Part shown: positions 2,674 to 20,977 of the stretch, piece after piece
How the letters are laid out: every line of letters starts with the position of its first letter
Numbering within the stretch: the stretch's first letter is position 1
Virus record (IMG/VR): IMGVR_UViG_3300035698_025512
Coordinates: 1-21,062 of that record
Origin: a virus
Reading direction: 5' to 3' (one strand)
Length of the DNA stretch: 21,062 bases
Made by a program: the position numbers and the translations under genes
The notes under the pieces: model-generated
Seen by the model: the letters and a program-made list of their open reading frames with translations, nothing else
The model's database searches: none
Told to the model about the DNA's origin: nothing

Positions 2674-3735
2674 TTATGAATTCGTTATGCTTAGGCCAGC
2701 AATTTCTGCCGGTTTAATATCATTTACCTGCACCCCCGTCACTTCGGCTGGCAGCACACCTTCATGAAATATTGATGTCTTGATTGCTGAATCCAAATAT
2801 GTTGCCAGGACAGCAATGGCTTTTACGCAGGTGGATTCCGTTATGGTGAACGGCACCGTGTAGGCTGTGTCAGATTCCGTGGGGTCATTGCCATCAGTGG
2901 TATAATAAATGTTAGCGCCACTGGTGGCGGTGGCTAGGGTTATGGTCTGTGCCTGTGAGAATATACCGCCGTTAGGGTCTATGGTGGGCGTACCGACTAT
3001 AAGCTGAGCAGCGTATAACTCCATCTGGTCAATAGCGACATTATCGTTATAACCCCAAAGACCCATTGAATTTCCGAGATTATGATTAATTAATGCTTGC
3101 GGAACTGTTAACGCTCTCTCGTATACTGCTACCCAATACATTTCACCTATAAATACTGCCGCCTCTACACCAAGTTTTAATTTGTTTGTTAATCCCAAAG
3201 CTCCCAAAGTATAATTGTCTTGAGTTGAATATGTGGATTCTGTCCCATTTATATATATTTTTAATAGTCCTGCTCCAGTTTTTACTAAATGAACAGTGTA
3301 TGTATTCCCATCCACAAGAACTATATCTGACTGAGCCTGTTTAATAGTTGTGCCATTAAATGTAAGAAAGTTTACGCCGGTTCCTACAATTCTACATCGT
3401 ACCTGCTTTGTACTAGGATCAAGCTGTGAAAAAAGAAGCCCTACACCAGTAGTATATTTAAACTTAAACTCAACTGTTCGATCATTAGCCGCTGTAAATC
3501 CAAGATCGTAAATTGTTTGTATTACATCATCAACCCCATCAAATTCACAATGACCATCCCCGGCATTGTAAAGATAACCGTTCGATGCGTCCATATTTGT
3601 AAAAGTCGCATTATATGTTCCAGCAGGATAGGCAGGCATCTCCCCGGTGTTCTGGTTTACAGTCCCATTGCCTTTAGACCAGGCATTAAAAGCCAGGGCC
3701 ATCAGGCAGTTTGTTTCGTCCCATCCACCTATCAT
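2674..3735 (-). CDS. Tail fibre protein: LamG lectin-like domain plus chitobiase-type C-terminal domain (353 aa)
   Basis: Residues about 35-225 read as a laminin-G/concanavalin-A-like beta sandwich (CEFDGVDDVIQT, RTVEFKFKYTTGVG, KIYINGTEST, GEMYWVAVYERAL). Residues about 245-325 match the chitobiase/hexosaminidase C-terminal-like repeat (TIDPNGGIFSQAQTITLA, IYYTTDGNDPTESDTAYT, CVKAIAV), found in many carbohydrate-active and adhesive proteins. Both folds suggest surface-glycan binding, so a receptor-binding role at the tail tip is inferred. The ATG overlaps the preceding stop as ATGA, with GGGAG eight bases upstream. The DNA for the LamG part is clearly poorer in GC (about 33% over 3181-3360 by hand count) than its neighbours, suggesting the domain arrived by recombination. 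Confidence 0.8.
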   Translation of the reverse strand: MIGGWDETNCLMALAFNAWSKGNGTVNQNTGEMPAYPAGTYNATFTNMDASNGYLYNAGDGHCEFDGVDDVIQTIYDLGFTAANDRTVEFKFKYTTGVGLLFSQLDPSTKQVRCRIVGTGVNFLTFNGTTIKQAQSDIVLVDGNTYTVHLVKTGAGLLKIYINGTESTYSTQDNYTLGALGLTNKLKLGVEAAVFIGEMYWVAVYERALTVPQALINHNLGNSMGLWGYNDNVAIDQMELYAAQLIVGTPTIDPNGGIFSQAQTITLATATSGANIYYTTDGNDPTESDTAYTVPFTITESTCVKAIAVLATYLDSAIKTSIFHEGVLPAEVTGVQVNDIKPAEIAGLSITNS

Positions 3736-4049: not shown

Positions 4050-7000
4050 TTATGCTGATGGATCAGTCCAGGTCACAGCGTTCAAACTTCGCACTGCATA
4101 TTCACTGAACCTTCCCTTTAGCCGTTTTATTCCGGTGATATAAAAGTCAGCTTTATTATTCACTTCGTTAATCATTAGATGCTGAATGGTGATGACTTCC
4201 CCTTCATTCAGGGCATACTGTGTCACCCCGGTCATGCTGCCTACCCAGTGTGGCAAGCCATAATTTTTGATTATATAATATACTTTATTCCTGCCGAAGC
4301 GCAAAGAATGAAATCTGTTCTGTGCCCTGCCCTTGGGGAAGCTGACAAATTTTCCATCTGTCAAAACATCCCTGCTGTATATGTGCCAGGCTTGCTGCAC
4401 TGACTGTTCCTGTGCTGTTAATATCTGGCCATTGCTTTTAATTTTTATTAAGTCACCCTTGAAAAAATTATGTGTTTTACCTGATGCCAGGCTTCCTTCA
4501 ATCCGCTTCACTTTTATATTGGTGGTGCCGATCTCTTCAAAGGCATTGGCTGCGGTCAGGTCCACCAGGTCAGCAGTGGCATCATGCCATTCCCCTTCAT
4601 TGCTTTTCAAAATAGTAAATTCAGAACCAACTTCCATGGTCTGCGGCAAGCCCGTAGCGATGGTGATGGTTTGCGCAGCTGCGTTCTTGGCCGTGATTGC
4701 CCTGACAACACTGTCGCCAGATGCATCCACAAACAGGGCAGAATCACCATCAGTGCTGCTGGCATAAATGTCATCAAACCGGGCAACTTCTAGTGATACG
4801 TTCAGCACGGTTTCCAGCAGGAATTCCTTCTGGCTGAATTGTGTGATGATCTCTTCAAAGTAATTTCTCCACTTAAACTTGTTTGTGGTGCTGGTGGCAA
4901 TCAATAAAATATTGACAGCATTCAGTGTACTGGTGGATACTTCAACATCATCAGCTTCAATGTTCCATGTTGAATTGGATGTGATGGTGATGGATGAAGC
5001 CGCTGGATCAAGGACCGGTGTGTATGGTGTCACCGCTGCATGGTTAAATAAATTATCCATGTCAGGATATACCTGGATATCCTTGATCAAGTCCTGGCCA
5101 TTGACATTAGTGAACGTGAACTGGCTGGTGCCTGAAGTAGGCTTTTTAATTATATAGTAATTACCATCTAAATAAAATCCATGCATATAGTCAACACTAT
5201 CCACCAGTCCTTCCAGGGCTTCAAACCGCATCTGTTCACTTGGGGATTCAAAATCATACAGGGCCAGGTATTCAAACAGGTTTTGATCAAACTTCCACAT
5301 CTTATATTGTCCCACCCGGTCAGTGGTATAAAATTGGTTCGGATAATCTGGTGCTGTCACTCCATAATAAACCTGCTGGCTGTTTGCCGTGTCGCTGACT
5401 TCACTGATATTGCATGACAAATTGAATTCCGATTCACCCACGGTTTCAAGATTGTCCATCAGCTTAATGCCATCAGTGGCTGATGTCTGATCCCATCTGT
5501 AAAATCTGCCCGTTTCAGCTTCCACATATACCACGCCTTCCGTGGCAGTTAAAAAAGGCATCATTGGCTGGTTCGGCAGGGCATCTTTTAAATCATCAAA
5601 GGAATCCTGATCAGTCAATGGGTGTGTGCCTATAAAATATTTAGTACTGGTCACGTTCCTTTTTAAGCCCACCACATCCAGGCTGCTGTTTGGTGCATCA
5701 TAAATAATGTCAAGGGGTGTCCGGTACACGCTGGAAGTATCAGAATCAGATTGATATATGGTAGTGTCTGTATTTGACACCACATCTATCTTGCCTATAT
5801 ATGCCCTGCTCGGTGTAGTGCCGGTATCATACCATCTGACACCACCTGCATACAAATGATTTCCGTCACCGTCACAGCCACAGAGATAATGATAAAAAGT
5901 GATGGTGTCCGTGCCTGAATTCATGTCATATAGTTTTGATTCAGCTGCACCATTGATGTCATATTTATATAGACTTGACTGCCTGGGTGCACTTGGGCTG
6001 TCAAGTTTCTGGTAATATATTTCACCATCAGAAACACCATCCTTGTAAACACAAAAACCACGCTGCCCCAGGGTGAACCGGACGCTGGGAAATGACGTTG
6101 CCGGGGGTATTGATGCCTTATATTGATCATAATATCCTGCGCCAATGGTGCCGGGCGGTGATTGTGCCGCCCCTCTGTCTGTTTCATCGAATATTGTATT
6201 CCTGCTTCTGACGCTATTAACATCATTCAAAGTGGTATAATATTGGCTAAAAGGAATAGTCAAGTTTTCACCACTGTCCACATCGGTATTGCTCCACCCC
6301 ATCGTGGGCCATGCTCCTATTGTGTTCCACTGGATATCTTCCTCGGGGGTGGCCTGGCCTCTCACGTAATGCGTCCCGCCTTCCCTGTATGTGAATTCAC
6401 CGGTGAACACATCCGTGGCCGAATGTTCCTTGCTGAAGGTGGTGCCATCCCAAGAAAAAACTTTCAGGGTGCTGCCCAGGGATGAAGCAGCCGGGTCATC
6501 ATAGGACACGCCCCACACTTCACCCACATTGGAATTGTACCACAGCCTTCTGATGAACTGGCCGCTGCCCAGGTCACTGCCGTCACCAGCTGTCAGCAAG
6601 GTGAATGCGTCCTTGCTGATTTCATATTTATACAATTCTTCATTGATACCATAAAAAATAAAATCAGCTCCCAGGTTTGTGTTATGCAGCTGTGCCCTGG
6701 CCACGTGGTCGGCACCTTCAGGGTTCAGGTAGTTTCCATCTGCATCCACATAAGCTGGCCTATCAGATGTTGACAATGCCCTGGGGTCAGTGGAATCATT
6801 TGGGTTTGATCCATACTGATTTTTAATTTCTATTTTTTCAGGCATGGTGAAGCTATTAATTTCGGCCGTGCTGAAAATGCCTTCCTGCAATCTTCGCATA
6901 ACATAAGACAGCGGCCTGTTCCTGATTTTCTGCTGTCCGTTCCTGACAGTTTTGGCCGTGGCTTCCCGTAAGAAATAAGCCGGTGACACCAGATGCAGCG

Positions 7001-8084
7001 TGGCCTTTTGGCTTGCCCAGGAACCGGGCTTGACTGACTTGACATAAAATACACCATTAGCAATGTCCACGGGTATGCCATTATAATTGTACCGCCTGAT
7101 CAGTCTGCACTTCCTGTTCTTCCAGAACTTAAAATCAGCACGGGCTGACAGACTGAACAGTCTTTGCATTTCTGATTCTGACAGCACACTGTTCCAGATG
7201 CCAAGTTCATCCAGGGTTCCGTCCAGGCAAGCTGTGCCACCTGAATCATTTGCCACATACCAAGTGCCACCGTTCGCCGCCTTGCCACCAGTGCCAGCCG
7301 GTCCTACATAGGTAATGTCAGTCAAGGTGGTGCCGTCATGACTGTATATAGATAGTTTTTTCGTGGTGCTGCTGTGTGTCACAATGATATATGTAAAGCT
7401 GCCAATGGGCACCGTCCTTGTGCTAATTGCCAAGGCATCCCCCGGGGCATAATCTGCCCTAGCAACTATCCTGACATTGCCACCAGCTTCAGAACTGGTG
7501 GCAATGTATTCACCGGCCTTCATGTAAATCACCCGGCCCTGGTTCGCTTCCCCGTCACTGTCAGGGTCAATCAAAAATGCAATTGTCCAATCATTCATGG
7601 TGGCAAAAGAAGCAGCTGTCAGACTGGTGTCTGATCCATTGCTGTCAATGGCCGTGCCCAGGTCCGTGTCCACGCTGGATGTCCAGGTGCCAGCCGTGAT
7701 GGTCAGGTGTTTTCCGCTGGCTTCATCAAAGGCCGTGGTGCCGGTATTCGCATCAAAGGCATAATAATGCTGTGCTTCCCGTTTCAGGTCAGCATCAATC
7801 AGATAATGATCAGAACCGTCTGCCCGTTTCAGGTCCGTGTGCTTAGTGGGGTCTATGGTCCAGAAGTTATTTTCATTCTTTACCAGAACATTGATTCCTT
7901 TGGTTTGGTATGAACCATTTGTCAACTGCCGGGAAGTGGAAACATTGTCCATTTTAAGGACAGCATTTTCGCCCACTTCATCAGAGAAATCCACCCAGGC
8001 ACCACGGTCATCCTGGATCTGAAAGAGTTCCGTGTAAGAAGTCTCGCCCCTGATCAAGGCACCATCTATGGCAGCAATTGACAT
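4050..8084 (-). CDS. Tail tip/hub protein with inserted LamG domain and long beta-rich centre (1344 aa)
   Basis: At 1344 residues this is the largest product in the window, and its place two genes after the tape measure is where siphoviruses keep the tail-tip or host-attachment protein. Residues 1-105 and about 318-405 look like parts of one hub-like domain. Between them (about 107-310) lies a LamG/concanavalin-like module, from HYYAFDANTG to LDGTLDELGIWNSVLSESEM. Residues about 410-880 contain repeated short strands (FIFYGINEELYKYE, GEVWGVSYDD, LKVFSWDGTTF, SLYKYDING, GRFYRWDQT) suggestive of a beta-propeller. The rest returns to hub-like and beta-sandwich sequence, ending in NADFYITGIKRLKGRFSEYA-like strands. 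No enzyme motif or membrane segment was found. The ribosome binding site is weak (CCGGAT). Domain limits are by eye. Confidence 0.75.
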   Translation of the reverse strand: MSIAAIDGALIRGETSYTELFQIQDDRGAWVDFSDEVGENAVLKMDNVSTSRQLTNGSYQTKGINVLVKNENNFWTIDPTKHTDLKRADGSDHYLIDADLKREAQHYYAFDANTGTTAFDEASGKHLTITAGTWTSSVDTDLGTAIDSNGSDTSLTAASFATMNDWTIAFLIDPDSDGEANQGRVIYMKAGEYIATSSEAGGNVRIVARADYAPGDALAISTRTVPIGSFTYIIVTHSSTTKKLSIYSHDGTTLTDITYVGPAGTGGKAANGGTWYVANDSGGTACLDGTLDELGIWNSVLSESEMQRLFSLSARADFKFWKNRKCRLIRRYNYNGIPVDIANGVFYVKSVKPGSWASQKATLHLVSPAYFLREATAKTVRNGQQKIRNRPLSYVMRRLQEGIFSTAEINSFTMPEKIEIKNQYGSNPNDSTDPRALSTSDRPAYVDADGNYLNPEGADHVARAQLHNTNLGADFIFYGINEELYKYEISKDAFTLLTAGDGSDLGSGQFIRRLWYNSNVGEVWGVSYDDPAASSLGSTLKVFSWDGTTFSKEHSATDVFTGEFTYREGGTHYVRGQATPEEDIQWNTIGAWPTMGWSNTDVDSGENLTIPFSQYYTTLNDVNSVRSRNTIFDETDRGAAQSPPGTIGAGYYDQYKASIPPATSFPSVRFTLGQRGFCVYKDGVSDGEIYYQKLDSPSAPRQSSLYKYDINGAAESKLYDMNSGTDTITFYHYLCGCDGDGNHLYAGGVRWYDTGTTPSRAYIGKIDVVSNTDTTIYQSDSDTSSVYRTPLDIIYDAPNSSLDVVGLKRNVTSTKYFIGTHPLTDQDSFDDLKDALPNQPMMPFLTATEGVVYVEAETGRFYRWDQTSATDGIKLMDNLETVGESEFNLSCNISEVSDTANSQQVYYGVTAPDYPNQFYTTDRVGQYKMWKFDQNLFEYLALYDFESPSEQMRFEALEGLVDSVDYMHGFYLDGNYYIIKKPTSGTSQFTFTNVNGQDLIKDIQVYPDMDNLFNHAAVTPYTPVLDPAASSITITSNSTWNIEADDVEVSTSTLNAVNILLIATSTTNKFKWRNYFEEIITQFSQKEFLLETVLNVSLEVARFDDIYASSTDGDSALFVDASGDSVVRAITAKNAAAQTITIATGLPQTMEVGSEFTILKSNEGEWHDATADLVDLTAANAFEEIGTTNIKVKRIEGSLASGKTHNFFKGDLIKIKSNGQILTAQEQSVQQAWHIYSRDVLTDGKFVSFPKGRAQNRFHSLRFGRNKVYYIIKNYGLPHWVGSMTGVTQYALNEGEVITIQHLMINEVNNKADFYITGIKRLKGRFSEYAVRSLNAVTWTDPSA

Positions 8085-15764: not shown

Positions 15765-16673
15765 TTACGCACCCTGTGACCCGTAAATCAATTGCCACAG
15801 CCCATATGTACCCACTGACCGGGCTTCAGCACCAAACTTCAGGGTACCACGCATGAACACATCATCACTTTCGGGATCAGTCTGACTGACAACTATGGGG
15901 GCCTTCCGTTCCTGATAAATCAGGGGTTTAATCGGGAAGCTATCATCAATCATGAACCAGGCAGTGCTGGAAGACAGTTCAGGAATTACCAGATAATCAA
16001 ATTCATCTTTGTACGGATTCGGAACATTATTCAACAGCTTGGGAGCTGTGGCCAGCGTTTTGGCCGCCATCCGCAGGGCTGAAGGAACCACTAGAAGCTT
16101 GGCGCCTATATGCATGGGCCTTCCTTCATCGGTTTTTCTGCTTTCCATGGAAGTGATGGCAAGTCCCACACAGGCATCAGCAGAGGACAGGGTGGCGGCT
16201 GATAAGGCATAACCATTGCTTTCCTTATTGGATTCCGTGGAAGCACCCACCGGGTGATCCGTATCAATCATGTACTGGGAATCATAGCAGTTATCACTGA
16301 ACGCATTGTCCAGCAGTTCTGCCACGATTTCATTGGGAAGCTGTGCGGCACTCCACCCGGCCATTTCTGCCTGGGGCCGATAGATACCCAGCTGATCATC
16401 ATCCAGGTGATTCCGTTTTACTTCAATGGTCACTTCCCAATCCTTATTGGTGGCCGTGTAATTGTAGGCTTTAAGCTGTGAAAGCTGCTTATCACCCACC
16501 CATTCACGCATCTTGGGAAAGTTTGACACCCAGGAATAGTCATTCAATTCCCCGGTGCTGGGAACCTTGGTGGCCACCTTGTCCCAAAACAGTTCAACCT
16601 TCTGAAATGCCTGGTTAAAGATGGCTTTAAGGTTCTTGAAAATGGCAGCCACGCTGGCTTTATTTACGAACAT
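15765..16673 (-). CDS. Major capsid protein, Mu gpT family (302 aa)
   Basis: The product builds the icosahedral shell. It resembles the Mu gpT family along its length: an N-terminal IFKNLKAIFNQAF helix, ELNDYSWVSNFPKMREWVGD, LKAYNYTATNKDWEVTIEVK and DDDQLGIYRPQAEMAGW, then a HPVG segment before the central domain. It is close in length to Mu T (about 305 residues). GAGGGG precedes the ATG with eight-base spacing. Its place after the protease/scaffold and decoration genes and before the gp35/gp36-like genes follows Mu order. An intrinsic terminator follows it. Confidence 0.92.
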   Translation of the reverse strand: MFVNKASVAAIFKNLKAIFNQAFQKVELFWDKVATKVPSTGELNDYSWVSNFPKMREWVGDKQLSQLKAYNYTATNKDWEVTIEVKRNHLDDDQLGIYRPQAEMAGWSAAQLPNEIVAELLDNAFSDNCYDSQYMIDTDHPVGASTESNKESNGYALSAATLSSADACVGLAITSMESRKTDEGRPMHIGAKLLVVPSALRMAAKTLATAPKLLNNVPNPYKDEFDYLVIPELSSSTAWFMIDDSFPIKPLIYQERKAPIVVSQTDPESDDVFMRGTLKFGAEARSVGTYGLWQLIYGSQGA

Positions 16674-16703: not shown

Positions 16704-17765
16704 TTAGGACGTTAATATTTCACGGGTGTATTCCAGCCACACCGAATTGATGGCCATGGTGTCCGTGGTATGGGCCACCGGAGTCAGGCCAATGGTCATG
16801 GTCTGTGCACCGGCAGGTATGTCGGCAGCCGCTATGGTTGCGATTTTTTCGGCCCAGGTAACGGTCTGATTCGTGGTGCTGACATCACTGACTTTCGTGT
16901 CAGCTTCGTTGAAGAAAGTTGCCACAGAAAAGCCCACCGCATTCGTGGTTCCACCGGATACTGACCGGAAGTGGATCACGATGTCTTTGGATGAATCAAA
17001 ATCTGGGGGAATAGGTATGGAAGTTACAATCTGCGTGTTTGTACTGGAGGCCCACACAAGGCGCTGACACCCGTCCGTGGCACCATTGATGGCATCCAGC
17101 AGGGGCGTAGTGTCCGAAGCAAGCACGCCACCATTGTCACTGATATTTGACACATCAAAATTCGTGCAGTGCCTGAAATTAGTCAGAGGAATGGGAAGGA
17201 AAGCCTGGGCAGTAACCAGGTCCGTGTATAATTCGTCAATGCATCCACCCACGGTGGACTGGCTGGTGTCGCTGTTCGTCTGGCTGATGGCCGTGCCAGC
17301 ATGGGCACCGCTTGCATCAGCAATATGAGAAGCCACATCAGTCTGTTTGGTGGCCGGGGTAATATCGACCCAGGCCGTGGTGGCGGAAACATATTGAGTA
17401 ATAACACCCACAAAAACATCACTGGTGGTGTCACCCACAAGGTCCACGGTGTTGTCATCTACACAATAAGCCTTGAGGCCCACGGCAGCCTGACTGATAA
17501 CAGTGTTAAATGTCATTAAGTACACACCGTCACGGGCAACGATGACATCCTTATCACCGGCAGAACCGGCTGAATTGTCCACCTGGGCAACCGTATTGAC
17601 ACCCATAAAAATGTGGGTGGAATCATCACTGCACGGGTACGCATACCCGTCATCGGAATCCACGGCAATCAGGGCATTAACATAAAAAATGTCAACACCG
17701 GCAGCAAAGGGAAGTTTAATTCCCTGTTTGCTGTTCAACTGCTTATCCGCAGCCATTATGGTCAT
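16704..17765 (-). CDS. Capsid decoration-like protein (DUF2190-type N-terminus) with extra C-terminal domain (353 aa)
   Basis: The N-terminal ~140 residues (VDIFYVNALIAVDSDDGYAYPC, ...KDVIVARDGVYLMTF) have the look of small head decoration proteins that sit on or cement capsid subunits. A polar Ser/Thr-rich linker (around 150-180) leads to a second beta-sandwich-like region (VIHFRSVSGG, MTIGLTPVAHTTDTMAINSV, WLEYTREIL) of unknown fold, possibly displayed outward. It lies between protease/scaffold and major capsid genes, the usual spot for decoration genes. AAGGAA sits eight bases before the first ATG, favouring it over the in-frame ATG three codons later. About 350 residues is long for a plain cement protein, so it may also act as a head fibre. 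Confidence 0.65.
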   Translation of the reverse strand: MTIMAADKQLNSKQGIKLPFAAGVDIFYVNALIAVDSDDGYAYPCSDDSTHIFMGVNTVAQVDNSAGSAGDKDVIVARDGVYLMTFNTVISQAAVGLKAYCVDDNTVDLVGDTTSDVFVGVITQYVSATTAWVDITPATKQTDVASHIADASGAHAGTAISQTNSDTSQSTVGGCIDELYTDLVTAQAFLPIPLTNFRHCTNFDVSNISDNGGVLASDTTPLLDAINGATDGCQRLVWASSTNTQIVTSIPIPPDFDSSKDIVIHFRSVSGGTTNAVGFSVATFFNEADTKVSDVSTTNQTVTWAEKIATIAAADIPAGAQTMTIGLTPVAHTTDTMAINSVWLEYTREILTS

Positions 17766-17809: not shown

Positions 17810-18397
17810 TTATTCCTTTTTGCCGGTCAGCAGTTCCAGGGGAACATCCATCTGCCGTGCCACTTCCTTGTCTTCGGCTGACAGCTTGGTGGTGGTCGTG
17901 TCCTTCCCTAAAATAACATCTTCCAGGGGAACCTGGACCTGACGGGTCAGCATCATTTTAGTAAACAGCTCGGGGTTCTTTTCGGCCATATCATTGCCCC
18001 ATTCGTCACGTTCAGCAGCAGTCAATTTGCCAAGCTCCATGGCATCTGTCACCAGTTTATCCGTGGTATTCACCAGCTGGGTTTTTTCCACTGCATTCAG
18101 CCGGTCGGTTACTGACAAAAGGGCTTTTTCAGTGGAATCTTTTACCGTGTTAATGTCCTTCAGCTTCTGGATGATGTCTTCCTTTTTGGCATCTTCCTTC
18201 AGTCCTACGGCCAGGGCCACAGCTTTCAGGTCTTCGCTGCCGTCTTTCTGGTCATTCACCTTGGCTTCCAGGTCAGTCAATGACTGATTCAGGGTGGCCA
18301 GGGTGGTTCCATCTTTGATATCCTTCAGCTTGGCTTCAATCACTTTTTCAGTGCTGTCTGCCGGTAGCCCAAAGAACGCACACAGAAGTTTCAACAT
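17810..18397 (-). CDS. Internal-start scaffold product of the protease gene (gpZ-like, 195 aa)
   Basis: Codon 245 of the protease gene is an ATG preceded by AAGGGG eight bases upstream, a better ribosome binding site than that of the full-length start. From here the product (MLKLLCAFFGLP...) is mostly helical and charged, with coiled-coil-like stretches, as expected of a scaffold. In Mu, gene I likewise contains an in-frame internal start that yields scaffold gpZ. The separate product is inferred from sequence and family precedent. Confidence 0.55.
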   Translation of the reverse strand: MLKLLCAFFGLPADSTEKVIEAKLKDIKDGTTLATLNQSLTDLEAKVNDQKDGSEDLKAVALAVGLKEDAKKEDIIQKLKDINTVKDSTEKALLSVTDRLNAVEKTQLVNTTDKLVTDAMELGKLTAAERDEWGNDMAEKNPELFTKMMLTRQVQVPLEDVILGKDTTTTKLSAEDKEVARQMDVPLELLTGKKE

Positions 18398-19129
18398 TTC
18401 CGCATCCCCTTGATTAAGATTAAAATTAGGATTTAAAATACTAATTGCTGATGCTGCAATTGCTTCAATATTTTTGGTGGCCGGTTCATTGGTTAGGGCA
18501 ATGTTCATGACGCCAAATATTCTTTTAGTCTTTTTATTAAACAATATCACCGGTGAATAATATTTATACTCTTCGTTCTCAATAAATTCAGAAGCAGTGT
18601 CTGTCCATTTTCTAACGTGTGCCCACAGGCCCACCCCTGCTTCATAAGAAAGCTTATTCACCCAGCCAGCTGCCGGTGCCTTGTCGCTGCCATCCACTGT
18701 TTGGTGATGGTAGTCAATTACCATGTCCCGACCCAGGTCATTAAACCGTTCCACTGCTGCTTCGCCGCCTTCCTGATCCATGATCAGGTCAGGTGTTTTG
18801 GTGGTCCTGACAGTGCCTTCAGGGAATAACAGAATCTTTTTGGGTGCTTTTTTATCTGCCAGAGCAACAAAAACAATATCAACACCAGGCATTTGTGAAG
18901 CAGGGATCAGTTCATCAGCTGCATTAAAATCCTGATATACATAGCCAAACTGGCTGCACCACAGCCTGGCATCAGCAGAACTGAATATGGTGGAATCAAA
19001 ATGAAGTTCAAGGGTGACATGTTCCCCGGCCTTAATACCGGTGACAAAAGAAATGCCATCAAAAAATTGATCAGTCTGGATTTTCTTAAATCCAGCCCGG
19101 TCCAGAATAATTGCAATATGTTTCTTCAT
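17810..19129 (-). CDS. Prohead protease/scaffold, Mu gpI family (439 aa)
   Basis: Mu gpI cuts capsid assembly proteins during maturation and carries the scaffold at its C-terminus. Here residues about 137-215 hold the protease signature: VIDYHHQ (139-143), APAAGW (151-156), GLWAHVRKWTDTA and YKYYSPV. The C-terminal ~195 residues are helical, charged and coiled-coil-like, the usual scaffold. The ~130 residues before the protease motif are longer than expected for Mu I and include SSADARLWCSQFGY. The chosen ATG is preceded immediately by an in-frame TAG, so no earlier start exists, though the nearest ribosome binding site (AGGTGG) is about 16 bases away, farther than normal. An internal start at residue 245 likely makes free scaffold. 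Confidence 0.88.
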   Translation of the reverse strand: MKKHIAIILDRAGFKKIQTDQFFDGISFVTGIKAGEHVTLELHFDSTIFSSADARLWCSQFGYVYQDFNAADELIPASQMPGVDIVFVALADKKAPKKILLFPEGTVRTTKTPDLIMDQEGGEAAVERFNDLGRDMVIDYHHQTVDGSDKAPAAGWVNKLSYEAGVGLWAHVRKWTDTASEFIENEEYKYYSPVILFNKKTKRIFGVMNIALTNEPATKNIEAIAASAISILNPNFNLNQGDAEMLKLLCAFFGLPADSTEKVIEAKLKDIKDGTTLATLNQSLTDLEAKVNDQKDGSEDLKAVALAVGLKEDAKKEDIIQKLKDINTVKDSTEKALLSVTDRLNAVEKTQLVNTTDKLVTDAMELGKLTAAERDEWGNDMAEKNPELFTKMMLTRQVQVPLEDVILGKDTTTTKLSAEDKEVARQMDVPLELLTGKKE

Positions 19130-19147: not shown

Positions 19148-19324
19148 CTACCCCCCTGACTCGTCAACCGGTTTTTTAGAATTTTTAATTAATTCCCAGT
19201 TCAAGGTGGCCCTGTTTTGCTCAAAAAGCTGGCCTTTTAACCAGATACGTGTGCCCTGGACACCAGCCTTCCCATACGGTGGCCATTCCTTTTTATCAGT
19301 TTTGGGTTCTGGTTTTAATGACAT
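19148..19324 (-). CDS. Small protein overlapping the end of the DUF115-like gene (58 aa)
   Basis: An ATG at 19324 lies within the last codons of the upstream gene, in a different frame, with AAGGA five bases before it; this is preferred over an earlier in-frame ATG (19363) that has no clear ribosome binding site. The product is MSLKPEPKTDKKEW... ending NSKKPVDESGG: charged, soluble, with no membrane segment. It overlaps the upstream gene by 29 bases and ends 18 bases before the protease gene. No family is recognised. It may be a genuine small gene coupled to its neighbour, or translated at low level only. Confidence 0.5.
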   Translation of the reverse strand: MSLKPEPKTDKKEWPPYGKAGVQGTRIWLKGQLFEQNRATLNWELIKNSKKPVDESGG

Positions 19325-20276
19325 TCTTTTCCTTGTGAAATTGATCCCTAATTTCTTGGGCATAGGCCGGTACAGTGGCCATATTATTCTTTAACCATTG
19401 CCATTTGTCTGTGGTGAAGGTCATGATTTTTCTCACTTCTGATTTCTTGCCATGGGCCGGGTACGGATAAGAATTCATCATGATCCGCTGCCCGGTTTCC
19501 CTGATCATGGTGCGGATCTGTGCCTGGTTTGAAGCCCAACAGCACCGGTTCAGTTCCGTGGGAATAGGATGTGCATACATCTGTGTGGCCTGTACTACAT
19601 AGCATTGCTTCTGTGGGTAATATAATTCACGGCCCTGGAAGGCATAGTCACATCCAATTTTCTTGACATCCGTGCAATACAGCAGGTGTGCAGCCAGGAA
19701 AGCCTGTGCAGTCACGTGGCTGAACTCCACCAGGATGGGCAAATTATATTCAGCAGCAATGGGATGGAACATGTCAGGCATGGGATTGTACCGCATCTGG
19801 AACCAGTATTTTTTCCCTTTGAAATTCTTTGTCAGGCCATGCCCACACTTAGCACAGGCCAGCAGGTCAACATCTTCCGTGTCAATATCGCTGACAAATT
19901 CATCCATGAAATTGAAGTGGTCTGGATCAATACAGGCAATGATGTCAGGCTTCACAATGCCCTGTATGCAGATTGCTGCCCGGTCTGTAGCGCAGATGAT
20001 CCAGCCCTGCCGTTTTAATTTGGGCAGGTCATGTTTTGTTTCATCGAGGCTGGGACCGGCACCCACCATTACCCATCTTCTGTGATGATATTTTTTCAAT
20101 CCAGGATGCCACCAGCCCTTGACTTCCGGTTCAAGTTCCAGGTTCAGCTTCATGTTGTCCAGCCATAATTTGTGCCGCCGTTCCACCTTGTCGTGGCCTG
20201 GGAATTTTGATGCTTCCTTTTTCACTGGTGCTGCTGGTGCTGCTTTCTTTTTCCTGAATAAGTTTAATACGTTCAT
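19296..20276 (-). CDS. DUF115/MptE-like (6-hydroxymethylpterin diphosphokinase-like or Maf-type) protein in head operon (326 aa)
   Basis: The central region matches the DUF115 pattern shared by MptE-like pyrophosphokinases and flagellin-glycosylating Maf proteins: VGAGPSL (71-77), IICATDRAA (93-101), PDIIACIDPDH (110-120) and KKIGCDYAFQGREL (205-218). In those families this Rossmann-like core binds a nucleotide-type donor. Two cysteines (CAKCGHG, 141-147) are extra. It starts with AGGGGGAATC just before the ATG, 11 bases after the F-like gene, and is read as part of the head operon. In a phage it might modify capsid or tail protein or act on a host metabolite; the substrate is unknown and the name rests on motifs seen by eye. 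Confidence 0.7.
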   Translation of the reverse strand: MNVLNLFRKKKAAPAAPVKKEASKFPGHDKVERRHKLWLDNMKLNLELEPEVKGWWHPGLKKYHHRRWVMVGAGPSLDETKHDLPKLKRQGWIICATDRAAICIQGIVKPDIIACIDPDHFNFMDEFVSDIDTEDVDLLACAKCGHGLTKNFKGKKYWFQMRYNPMPDMFHPIAAEYNLPILVEFSHVTAQAFLAAHLLYCTDVKKIGCDYAFQGRELYYPQKQCYVVQATQMYAHPIPTELNRCCWASNQAQIRTMIRETGQRIMMNSYPYPAHGKKSEVRKIMTFTTDKWQWLKNNMATVPAYAQEIRDQFHKEKNVIKTRTQN

Positions 20277-20287
20277 GATTCCCCCTG

Positions 20288-20977
20288 TTACTTTTTAGAT
20301 TTCTTGTGTGCTGCCTGTTCCTTCACATACTGTTTGCTGATTCCCGGTGGATAATTTTTCAGGTCAGGCTTGAATGGTCCAGCCTTGGCCGGGTTCTTGT
20401 TGAATCCTTTATCCGGTGGCACCTTGATCTTTTTCCTGTCCAGTTTTGGATCTGTCCGCTTGTGTAACGGTGTCACCGTGGTCCTGCAATTGAAGTGATT
20501 AGGTGGTGTGAAATGGTCAAATATGGGATCATTAGCAGGGTACGTGCCCCCGGCCAGCTGTTCGCAGATTTCAGAAGTTTCAGCATCCACCACCACATTG
20601 AACTTCCGCATGGGAAAGTTCTCTTTTCTCTTTTCCATCTGTTCAAACCGGCCCACGCTGTATGCTGTCTGCACGTTTGTCCTGAACACAGTATCAAGAT
20701 GCCAGGGTGACAGCCGTGTTACGCCCATATTATCAAACATGGTATCGACACCGTCCTTGAACATTTTCATGGTGGTGCCATCAGCCAGCGCTCGGTCCAC
20801 TTCCTTAAATACACCATTCACCATGTTCATGGCTTCCACTCGTGCCACGGTGAAGGCCAGGTCAGTCTGTGATTCCAGCAGCAGTTCAAATTCTGCCTTG
20901 CTCATGCTGACCTTATCCCTGAAAAAGCGGATGGCAGCTTCAGGTGATACCGGTTCAAGATTGATTTTACTTGCCAT
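20288..20977 (-). CDS. Phage head morphogenesis protein, Mu gpF / SPP1 gp7 family (229 aa)
   Basis: These minor head proteins bind the portal and are present in few copies in the capsid, with roles in assembly and DNA ejection. The conserved C-terminal core is clear: FRTNVQTAYSVGRFEQ (98-113), DAETSEICEQLAGG (131-144), then TYPANDPIFDHFTPPNHFNC (145-164). Family members usually end soon after this core, as here; at 229 residues the protein is shorter than Mu F (about 440) and nearer the minimal form. Its ATG overlaps the end of the preceding (portal) gene by 11 bases. It heads the visible head operon. Confidence 0.92.
   Translation of the reverse strand: MASKINLEPVSPEAAIRFFRDKVSMSKAEFELLLESQTDLAFTVARVEAMNMVNGVFKEVDRALADGTTMKMFKDGVDTMFDNMGVTRLSPWHLDTVFRTNVQTAYSVGRFEQMEKRKENFPMRKFNVVVDAETSEICEQLAGGTYPANDPIFDHFTPPNHFNCRTTVTPLHKRTDPKLDRKKIKVPPDKGFNKNPAKAGPFKPDLKNYPPGISKQYVKEQAAHKKSKK

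Follow-up and report, generated by a model that had tools for sequence, protein, structure and literature searches.

The window analyzed here is a complete virus record of 21,062 bases (IMGVR_UViG_3300035698_025512), which is itself a fragment. On its minus strand, a DUF115 gene with an ATG start is embedded in a Mu-like head operon, with the following genes in and around this position:

15765..16673, minus strand: major head protein gpT, 302 aa (PF10124, E 7.5e-79); second candidate acceptor, by analogy
16704..17765, minus strand: decoration-like virion protein, 353 aa (phrog_1731 domain at residues 1-135, E 4.7e-19); candidate acceptor
17810..19129, minus strand: Mu-like protease/scaffold protein (gpI-like), 439 aa (PF10123, Mu-like_Pro, E 5.6e-59); downstream of the DUF115 gene
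19148..19363, minus strand: putative small ORF, 71 aa, sharing 68 nt with the 3' end of the DUF115 gene; reality uncertain
19296..20276, minus strand: DUF115/MptE-like (PF01973) protein, 326 aa, with a modelled core that resembles 8SD5 (MptE) and 5MU5 (Maf)
20288..20977, minus strand: Mu F-like minor head/head morphogenesis protein, 229 aa (PF04233, Phage_Mu_F, E 1.9e-13; phrog_220, E 3.8e-40); immediately upstream of the DUF115 gene

The initial annotation had placed the 326-aa product among the DUF115/MptE-like enzymes, and this assignment was borne out: PF01973 (MptE-like, formerly DUF115) matches residues 62-214 with an E-value of 8e-17 and 62 bits (curated Pfam cut-off 34.6), a match by chance is excluded, and the four motifs that had been named (GAGPSL, ATDRAA, PDIIACID, and KKIGCDYAF) are all present in the ORF. 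The position between the F-like and protease genes was likewise confirmed by the PF04233 match upstream and the PF10123 match downstream. No PHROG family matched the protein at E 0.1, and the model of the flagellin modification protein PseD resembles it weakly (E 0.005, far under the model cut-off). The gene had further been described as tightly spaced and co-transcribed with the head genes. While the former holds on the F side, where 11 nt separate the 2 ORFs, co-transcription is plausible, with neither promoters (sigma-70 type scanned) nor terminators on the minus strand of the slot scoring clearly above shuffled sequences. The 166 nt between the DUF115 and protease genes are mostly occupied by the overlapping small ORF, which has no match in Pfam or PHROG and may be spurious or represent a further cargo gene. 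In the tail region of the window, a 1344-aa protein (4050-8084) contains a Laminin_G_3 domain, and another protein (2674-3735, minus strand) contains a chitobiase C-terminal/Fn3-associated domain, with possible carbohydrate binding.

The F-protease interval was compared among gpT-matched Mu-like loci from GTDB genomes and IMG/VR, where it spans 25 to about 3,300 nt. Longer slots often contain a gene resembling phage gpG (PF05069 was matched by 13 of the 45 slot proteins), and single cases harbor Abi_alpha (L040), HEPN (L013), a Dam-type methylase (L023), GGDEF (L092), or HATPase (L048). At the same place, Pseudomonas phage H70 carries 2 accessory ORFs, one of which is annotated as DNA-binding; we interpret them as an anti-CRISPR/aca pair. 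In Pseudomonas Mu-like phages, a region of plasticity that contains anti-CRISPR genes has been described (PMC4378225), and its equation with the slot (accessory site G) rests on the H70 annotation. The F-protease gap is therefore a variable, accepted place for cargo in Mu-like phages. Like the genes of site G, the window gene lies in the head operon ahead of the protease/scaffold gene, between F/G and protease; few relatives carry it. It differs from the cargo of site G, which consists of small, low-GC anti-CRISPR/aca genes, in being a larger, single enzyme gene with a GC content (0.47-0.48) equal to that of the rest of the phage, and neither an own promoter or terminator (with sigma-70 promoters scanned) nor an atypical composition was found. 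Nothing points to a recent acquisition. The earlier wording that the gene is "inserted" in the head operon is still fair, although it overlooked that the gap is a recognised accessory-gene site, for which reason position alone is no proof of a role in head assembly. Moreover, a survey of Mu-like phages for the same gene in the same slot, as proposed in the initial annotation, revealed no DUF115 gene in any other slot examined, so that synteny does not prove a link to head assembly either.

Among the loci of this comparison, the slot of the Mu-like prophage L040 (L040:3222-5357) contains 2 adjacent candidate defence genes on the opposite strand (PADLOC PDC-S31 and PDC-S47/Abi_alpha), and that of an Azorhizobium Mu-like prophage (L092:2210-3136) encodes a GGDEF protein with a CZB (chemoreceptor zinc-binding) domain. 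The record of Mu-like phage L008 also contains a DUF115 gene, which adjoins flagellin and was therefore not accepted as a homologue in the slot. The far end of this record (G007, comprising L008 and L010; 45-56 kb) contains flagellin, a Maf-type DUF115, and NeuB, and is apparently host DNA.

The window protein alone could not be modelled (single-sequence AlphaFold pLDDT 32). From an alignment with 19 viral homologues (A7; 20 sequences), AlphaFold returned a model with a pTM of 0.63 and a pLDDT of about 80-90 over most of residues 30-210, while the C-terminal third (residues 214-326) was modelled poorly and with low confidence. The first ranks of a Foldseek search against the PDB were taken by MptE of Methanocaldococcus (8SD5, the best match, and 8SBU), the Maf glycosyltransferase 5MU5, and human sialyltransferases, several of which carry CMP or CTP-type ligands. 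The matches to 5MU5 and 8SD5 (E 8e-6 to 4e-5; TM about 0.40 over the query) indicate that the modelled protein has the Rossmann-like core of these structures. The profile search and structure prediction, both put forward earlier as checks, hence agree with the family assignment. At the sequence level, the A7 profile found 5MU5 at 7e-19 and 8SD5 at 1e-14.

With Maf/PseE flagellin nonulosonate transferases (5MU5; CbMaf, PMC11339370), the window protein shares the PF01973 core, the GPS(L) motif, and the G-x-D strand. However, Maf consists of 3 domains (an N-terminal domain, Maf_flag10, and a C-terminal helical domain; PMC11339370) and occurs with flagellin or flagellar genes, whereas the window protein extends beyond the core by only about 60 aa on the N-terminal and 110 aa on the C-terminal side, shows about 13% identity over the fold match, and is encoded in a phage head operon. 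With the archaeal 6-hydroxymethyl-dihydropterin pyrophosphokinase MptE it shares superfamily and fold. The second and third conserved regions read PDIIVSDLDG and GGFTDGDR in MptE (8SD5), PDFQMLLENG and GPTVTNT in Maf (5MU5), and PDIIACIDPDH and EFSHVTAQ in the window protein. The acidic segments SDLDG and FTDGDR of 8SD5, for which a catalytic role in MptE is presumed, are thus replaced by CIDPDH and FSHVTAQ. While the family name and the best fold match would favor a true 6-hydroxymethyl-dihydropterin diphosphokinase that redirects a folate/pterin precursor of the host, the replacement of these segments argues against it, no pterin genes were seen near the window gene, and its relatives accompany sialic-acid genes (see below). 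We consider this function highly improbable, and the earlier suggestion of a redirected host precursor found no support.

GAGPSL, the G-x-D strand, and Asn268, all corresponding to invariant columns in A7, are retained in the window protein, as is an N-terminal W..N...N motif. The C-terminal TEGG of most viral relatives is replaced by YPYP, and the Tyr/His-Ala segment that commonly follows G-x-D is lost. In a tree of 32 sequences, the branch of the protein is long (2.62; best identity 22%) and falls within a supported set (96/95) that also includes all viral and 4 cellular rows. Its nearest neighbours by tree path are the tail-type copies of records G059, G060, and G062, although its placement inside the set is unsure. 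No viral contig, genome contig, or phage record matched the window protein when it was used as a direct query, and its core alone yielded noise at E about 1. Neither PADLOC nor a GGT-codon motif scan, the pattern of which fits the window itself, returned a match. A tblastn search of 4 kinds of phage DUF115 proteins against INPHARED found no match and hence no cultivated relative, and 395 genomes from the phylum to which the L041 genome belongs contained no close orthologue, the best match being a 584-aa protein with 31% identity (G465) that has no obvious phage gene nearby. The best viral-model matches are "MptE-like" proteins of uncultured Caudovirales phages; phage members are thus already present in databases under this name, and no tested function was found for them in open-licence PMC papers.

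Profile-type pattern searches that were blind to NeuB identified 21 distinct other IMG/VR records with PF01973, all from uncultivated phages and most of them fragments. Four of these (G059, G060, G062, and G068) encode 3 DUF115 proteins each. In G060 and G062, for which the neighbours were tested, 1 copy directly precedes the major tail protein and 2 directly precede a gpT-like head protein. The order in G060 begins with a terminase-like gene, 2 further genes, a probable protease gene and a probable decoration gene (both without a PHROG match), DUF115, a second PF01973 match, and the gpT-like head protein; it continues with a cytidylyltransferase match, radical-SAM-like, methyltransferase-like, NeuB, and sugar-isomerase-like genes as well as neck genes, and ends with DUF115, the major tail protein, and the tape measure. 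G062 follows the same logic, with Pfam matches to NeuB, CTP_transf_3, Radical_SAM+B12, GDP_Man_Dehyd, methyltransferase, AP_endonuc_2, BNR_2, and gpT. The tail copies of G059 and G068 precede homologues of the same major tail protein, judging by sequence resemblance. Furthermore, DUF115 follows the major head gene in G079, lies a few genes past it in G066 and G075, follows the major tail gene in G065, and is located between terminase and portal in G061. In 6 records (G070-G072, G074, G077, and G078), it is not clearly within a structural module. The BNR_2 match of G062 (sialidase-like repeat; L153:7288-8388) is just below the Pfam cut-off and lies beside the cytidylyltransferase and radical-SAM genes.

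NeuB (PF03102) was found in 10 of the 21 records (G059, G060, G062, G064, G068, G070, G072, G073, G078, and G079), with weaker matches of about 53 bits in G070 and G072, and the cytidylyltransferase CTP_transf_3 in 8, all of which are NeuB-positive. G059, G060, and G064 form one closely related group and G062 and G068 a pair of relatives, so that the NeuB-positive records represent about 6 rather than 10 independent lineages. In G079 (G079:C1:2412-3023, minus strand), the NeuB match is broken by an in-frame TAA, reflecting a decayed gene or a sequencing error. For comparison, a tblastn search with NeuB of G062 found 3 of 50,697 phage records, a contrast that is indicative only, as collection and method differ. 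Among 9 viral control records (L011 was used solely as a control), 1 contained NeuB; this 56.6-kb record probably includes host DNA, because it also harbors a flagellin gene and its own flagellin-linked, Maf-type DUF115. The contigs with NeuB and DUF115 (G059, G060, G062, G064, G068, and others) include the nearest relatives of the window protein by tree path, encode DUF115 among head and tail genes, and in several cases have gpT-like heads. In contrast to the window fragment, where neither was seen, they harbor NeuB and cytidylyltransferase. They also differ in having up to 3 DUF115 copies and the TEGG motif, and in the location of these copies, which stand ahead of gpT or the major tail protein and not in the F-protease gap.

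Based on the likeness to Maf, we tentatively propose that the window protein, a member of the DUF115 superfamily, acts as a single-domain, Maf-like glycosyltransferase in the O-glycosylation of a virion protein. Maf enzymes O-glycosylate Ser/Thr of flagellin and can accept CMP-Neu5Ac or CMP-Kdo when their own donor is absent (PMC11339370); by analogy with Maf/PseE, a CMP-sugar donor, a Ser/Thr acceptor, and a gene beside those of the presumed acceptor would be expected. The enzyme would be made together with the head proteins. Its most likely donor, supplied by the infected host, would be an acidic sugar of 8 or 9 carbons in CMP-activated form (CMP-Kdo or CMP-nonulosonic acid), which the enzyme would link before or during assembly to Ser/Thr of a virion protein such as the Ser/Thr-rich decoration protein or gpT, with masking, stability, or adsorption as the putative benefit. 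The decoration-like protein is a candidate acceptor, since its C-terminal extension of about 215 aa consists of 25% Ser/Thr; the enrichment of the entire protein is modest (353 aa and 21.2% S+T, whereas 74 loci, many of which are near-copies, have a median of 133 aa and 14.2% with 20.3% as the highest value). Most Mu-like relatives are devoid of this extension. By analogy with the phages in which DUF115 genes precede gpT, the latter is a second candidate. Across phages, the acceptor of each DUF115 protein may be the structural protein encoded next to it, as in Maf.

The earlier suggestion that the gene modifies a virion protein is partly supported, if indirectly, by the further phages whose DUF115 genes lie in the midst of head and tail genes and are accompanied by NeuB and cytidylyltransferase genes. 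Speaking against glycosylation, neither of the latter 2 was among the matches of the scanned proteins of the window, a 21-kb fragment; other points on this side are the divergence of the protein with YPYP in place of TEGG, the lack of DUF115 in the other slots examined, the poorly modelled residues 214-326, and the modest enrichment of the decoration protein. The same divergence would fit a degenerate, non-enzymatic member that transfers no sugar and has kept its fold to serve the head proteins in assembly or in a chaperone-like way. We regard this as unlikely, as the retained GAGPSL, G-x-D, Asn268, and W..N...N point to constraint on a nucleotide-binding core. It is somewhat easier to envisage, if still rather unlikely, that the gene is cargo (a moron) in an accessory site, the product of which modifies a host surface structure such as flagellin rather than the virion, altering the motility of the lysogen or excluding other phages. 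The variability of the slot, with its anti-CRISPR-type ORFs in H70 and the defence candidates, methylase, GGDEF, and HATPase elsewhere, is in line with this, and the closest cellular look-alikes are found within flagellar hook operons. However, the window gene has no promoter of its own above background and lies 11 nt from F, making late expression likely; its GC content is phage-like, unlike that of the low-GC anti-CRISPR region (PMC4378225); it lacks a PADLOC match; and other phage DUF115 genes adjoin major head and tail genes, outside the slot.

Glycosylation of the virion by the window phage might be part of a broader pattern. Somewhat more speculatively, several uncultivated tailed-phage lineages could make nonulosonic acid themselves (through NeuB and cytidylyltransferase, with tailoring by radical-SAM and methyltransferase enzymes) and decorate their virions via separate head and tail DUF115 transferases, as bacteria do with flagellin, the window phage being a minimal version that borrows the donor of its host. 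Virion glycosylation has so far been established for few phages, namely mycobacteriophages: capsid and tail-tube proteins of Che8, Corndog, and Myrna are glycosylated by phage-encoded glycosyltransferases, according to Freeman et al. 2023 as cited in PMC12363180. These systems involve other hosts, phages, and glycosyltransferases (Che8 gp110 and Corndog gp38 in that account), and their parallel to the DUF115 proteins is one of proposed function. If true, a Maf/DUF115 route with a self-encoded sialic-acid-type sugar, present in several lineages of phages, would link the enzymes of flagellar glycosylation to capsid and tail decoration. It would also offer a hypothesis on what phage proteins do that so far bear only the name "MptE-like", and it predicts that the structural protein encoded beside each DUF115 gene carries the sugar.

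Among the cellular relatives, 2 Nitrospinaceae genomes (L109:5104-6021 and L110:5675-6595) encode a stand-alone DUF115 protein of about 305 aa after flgD and flgE (hook), with gene names read from the sequence, and this protein may modify the hook protein.
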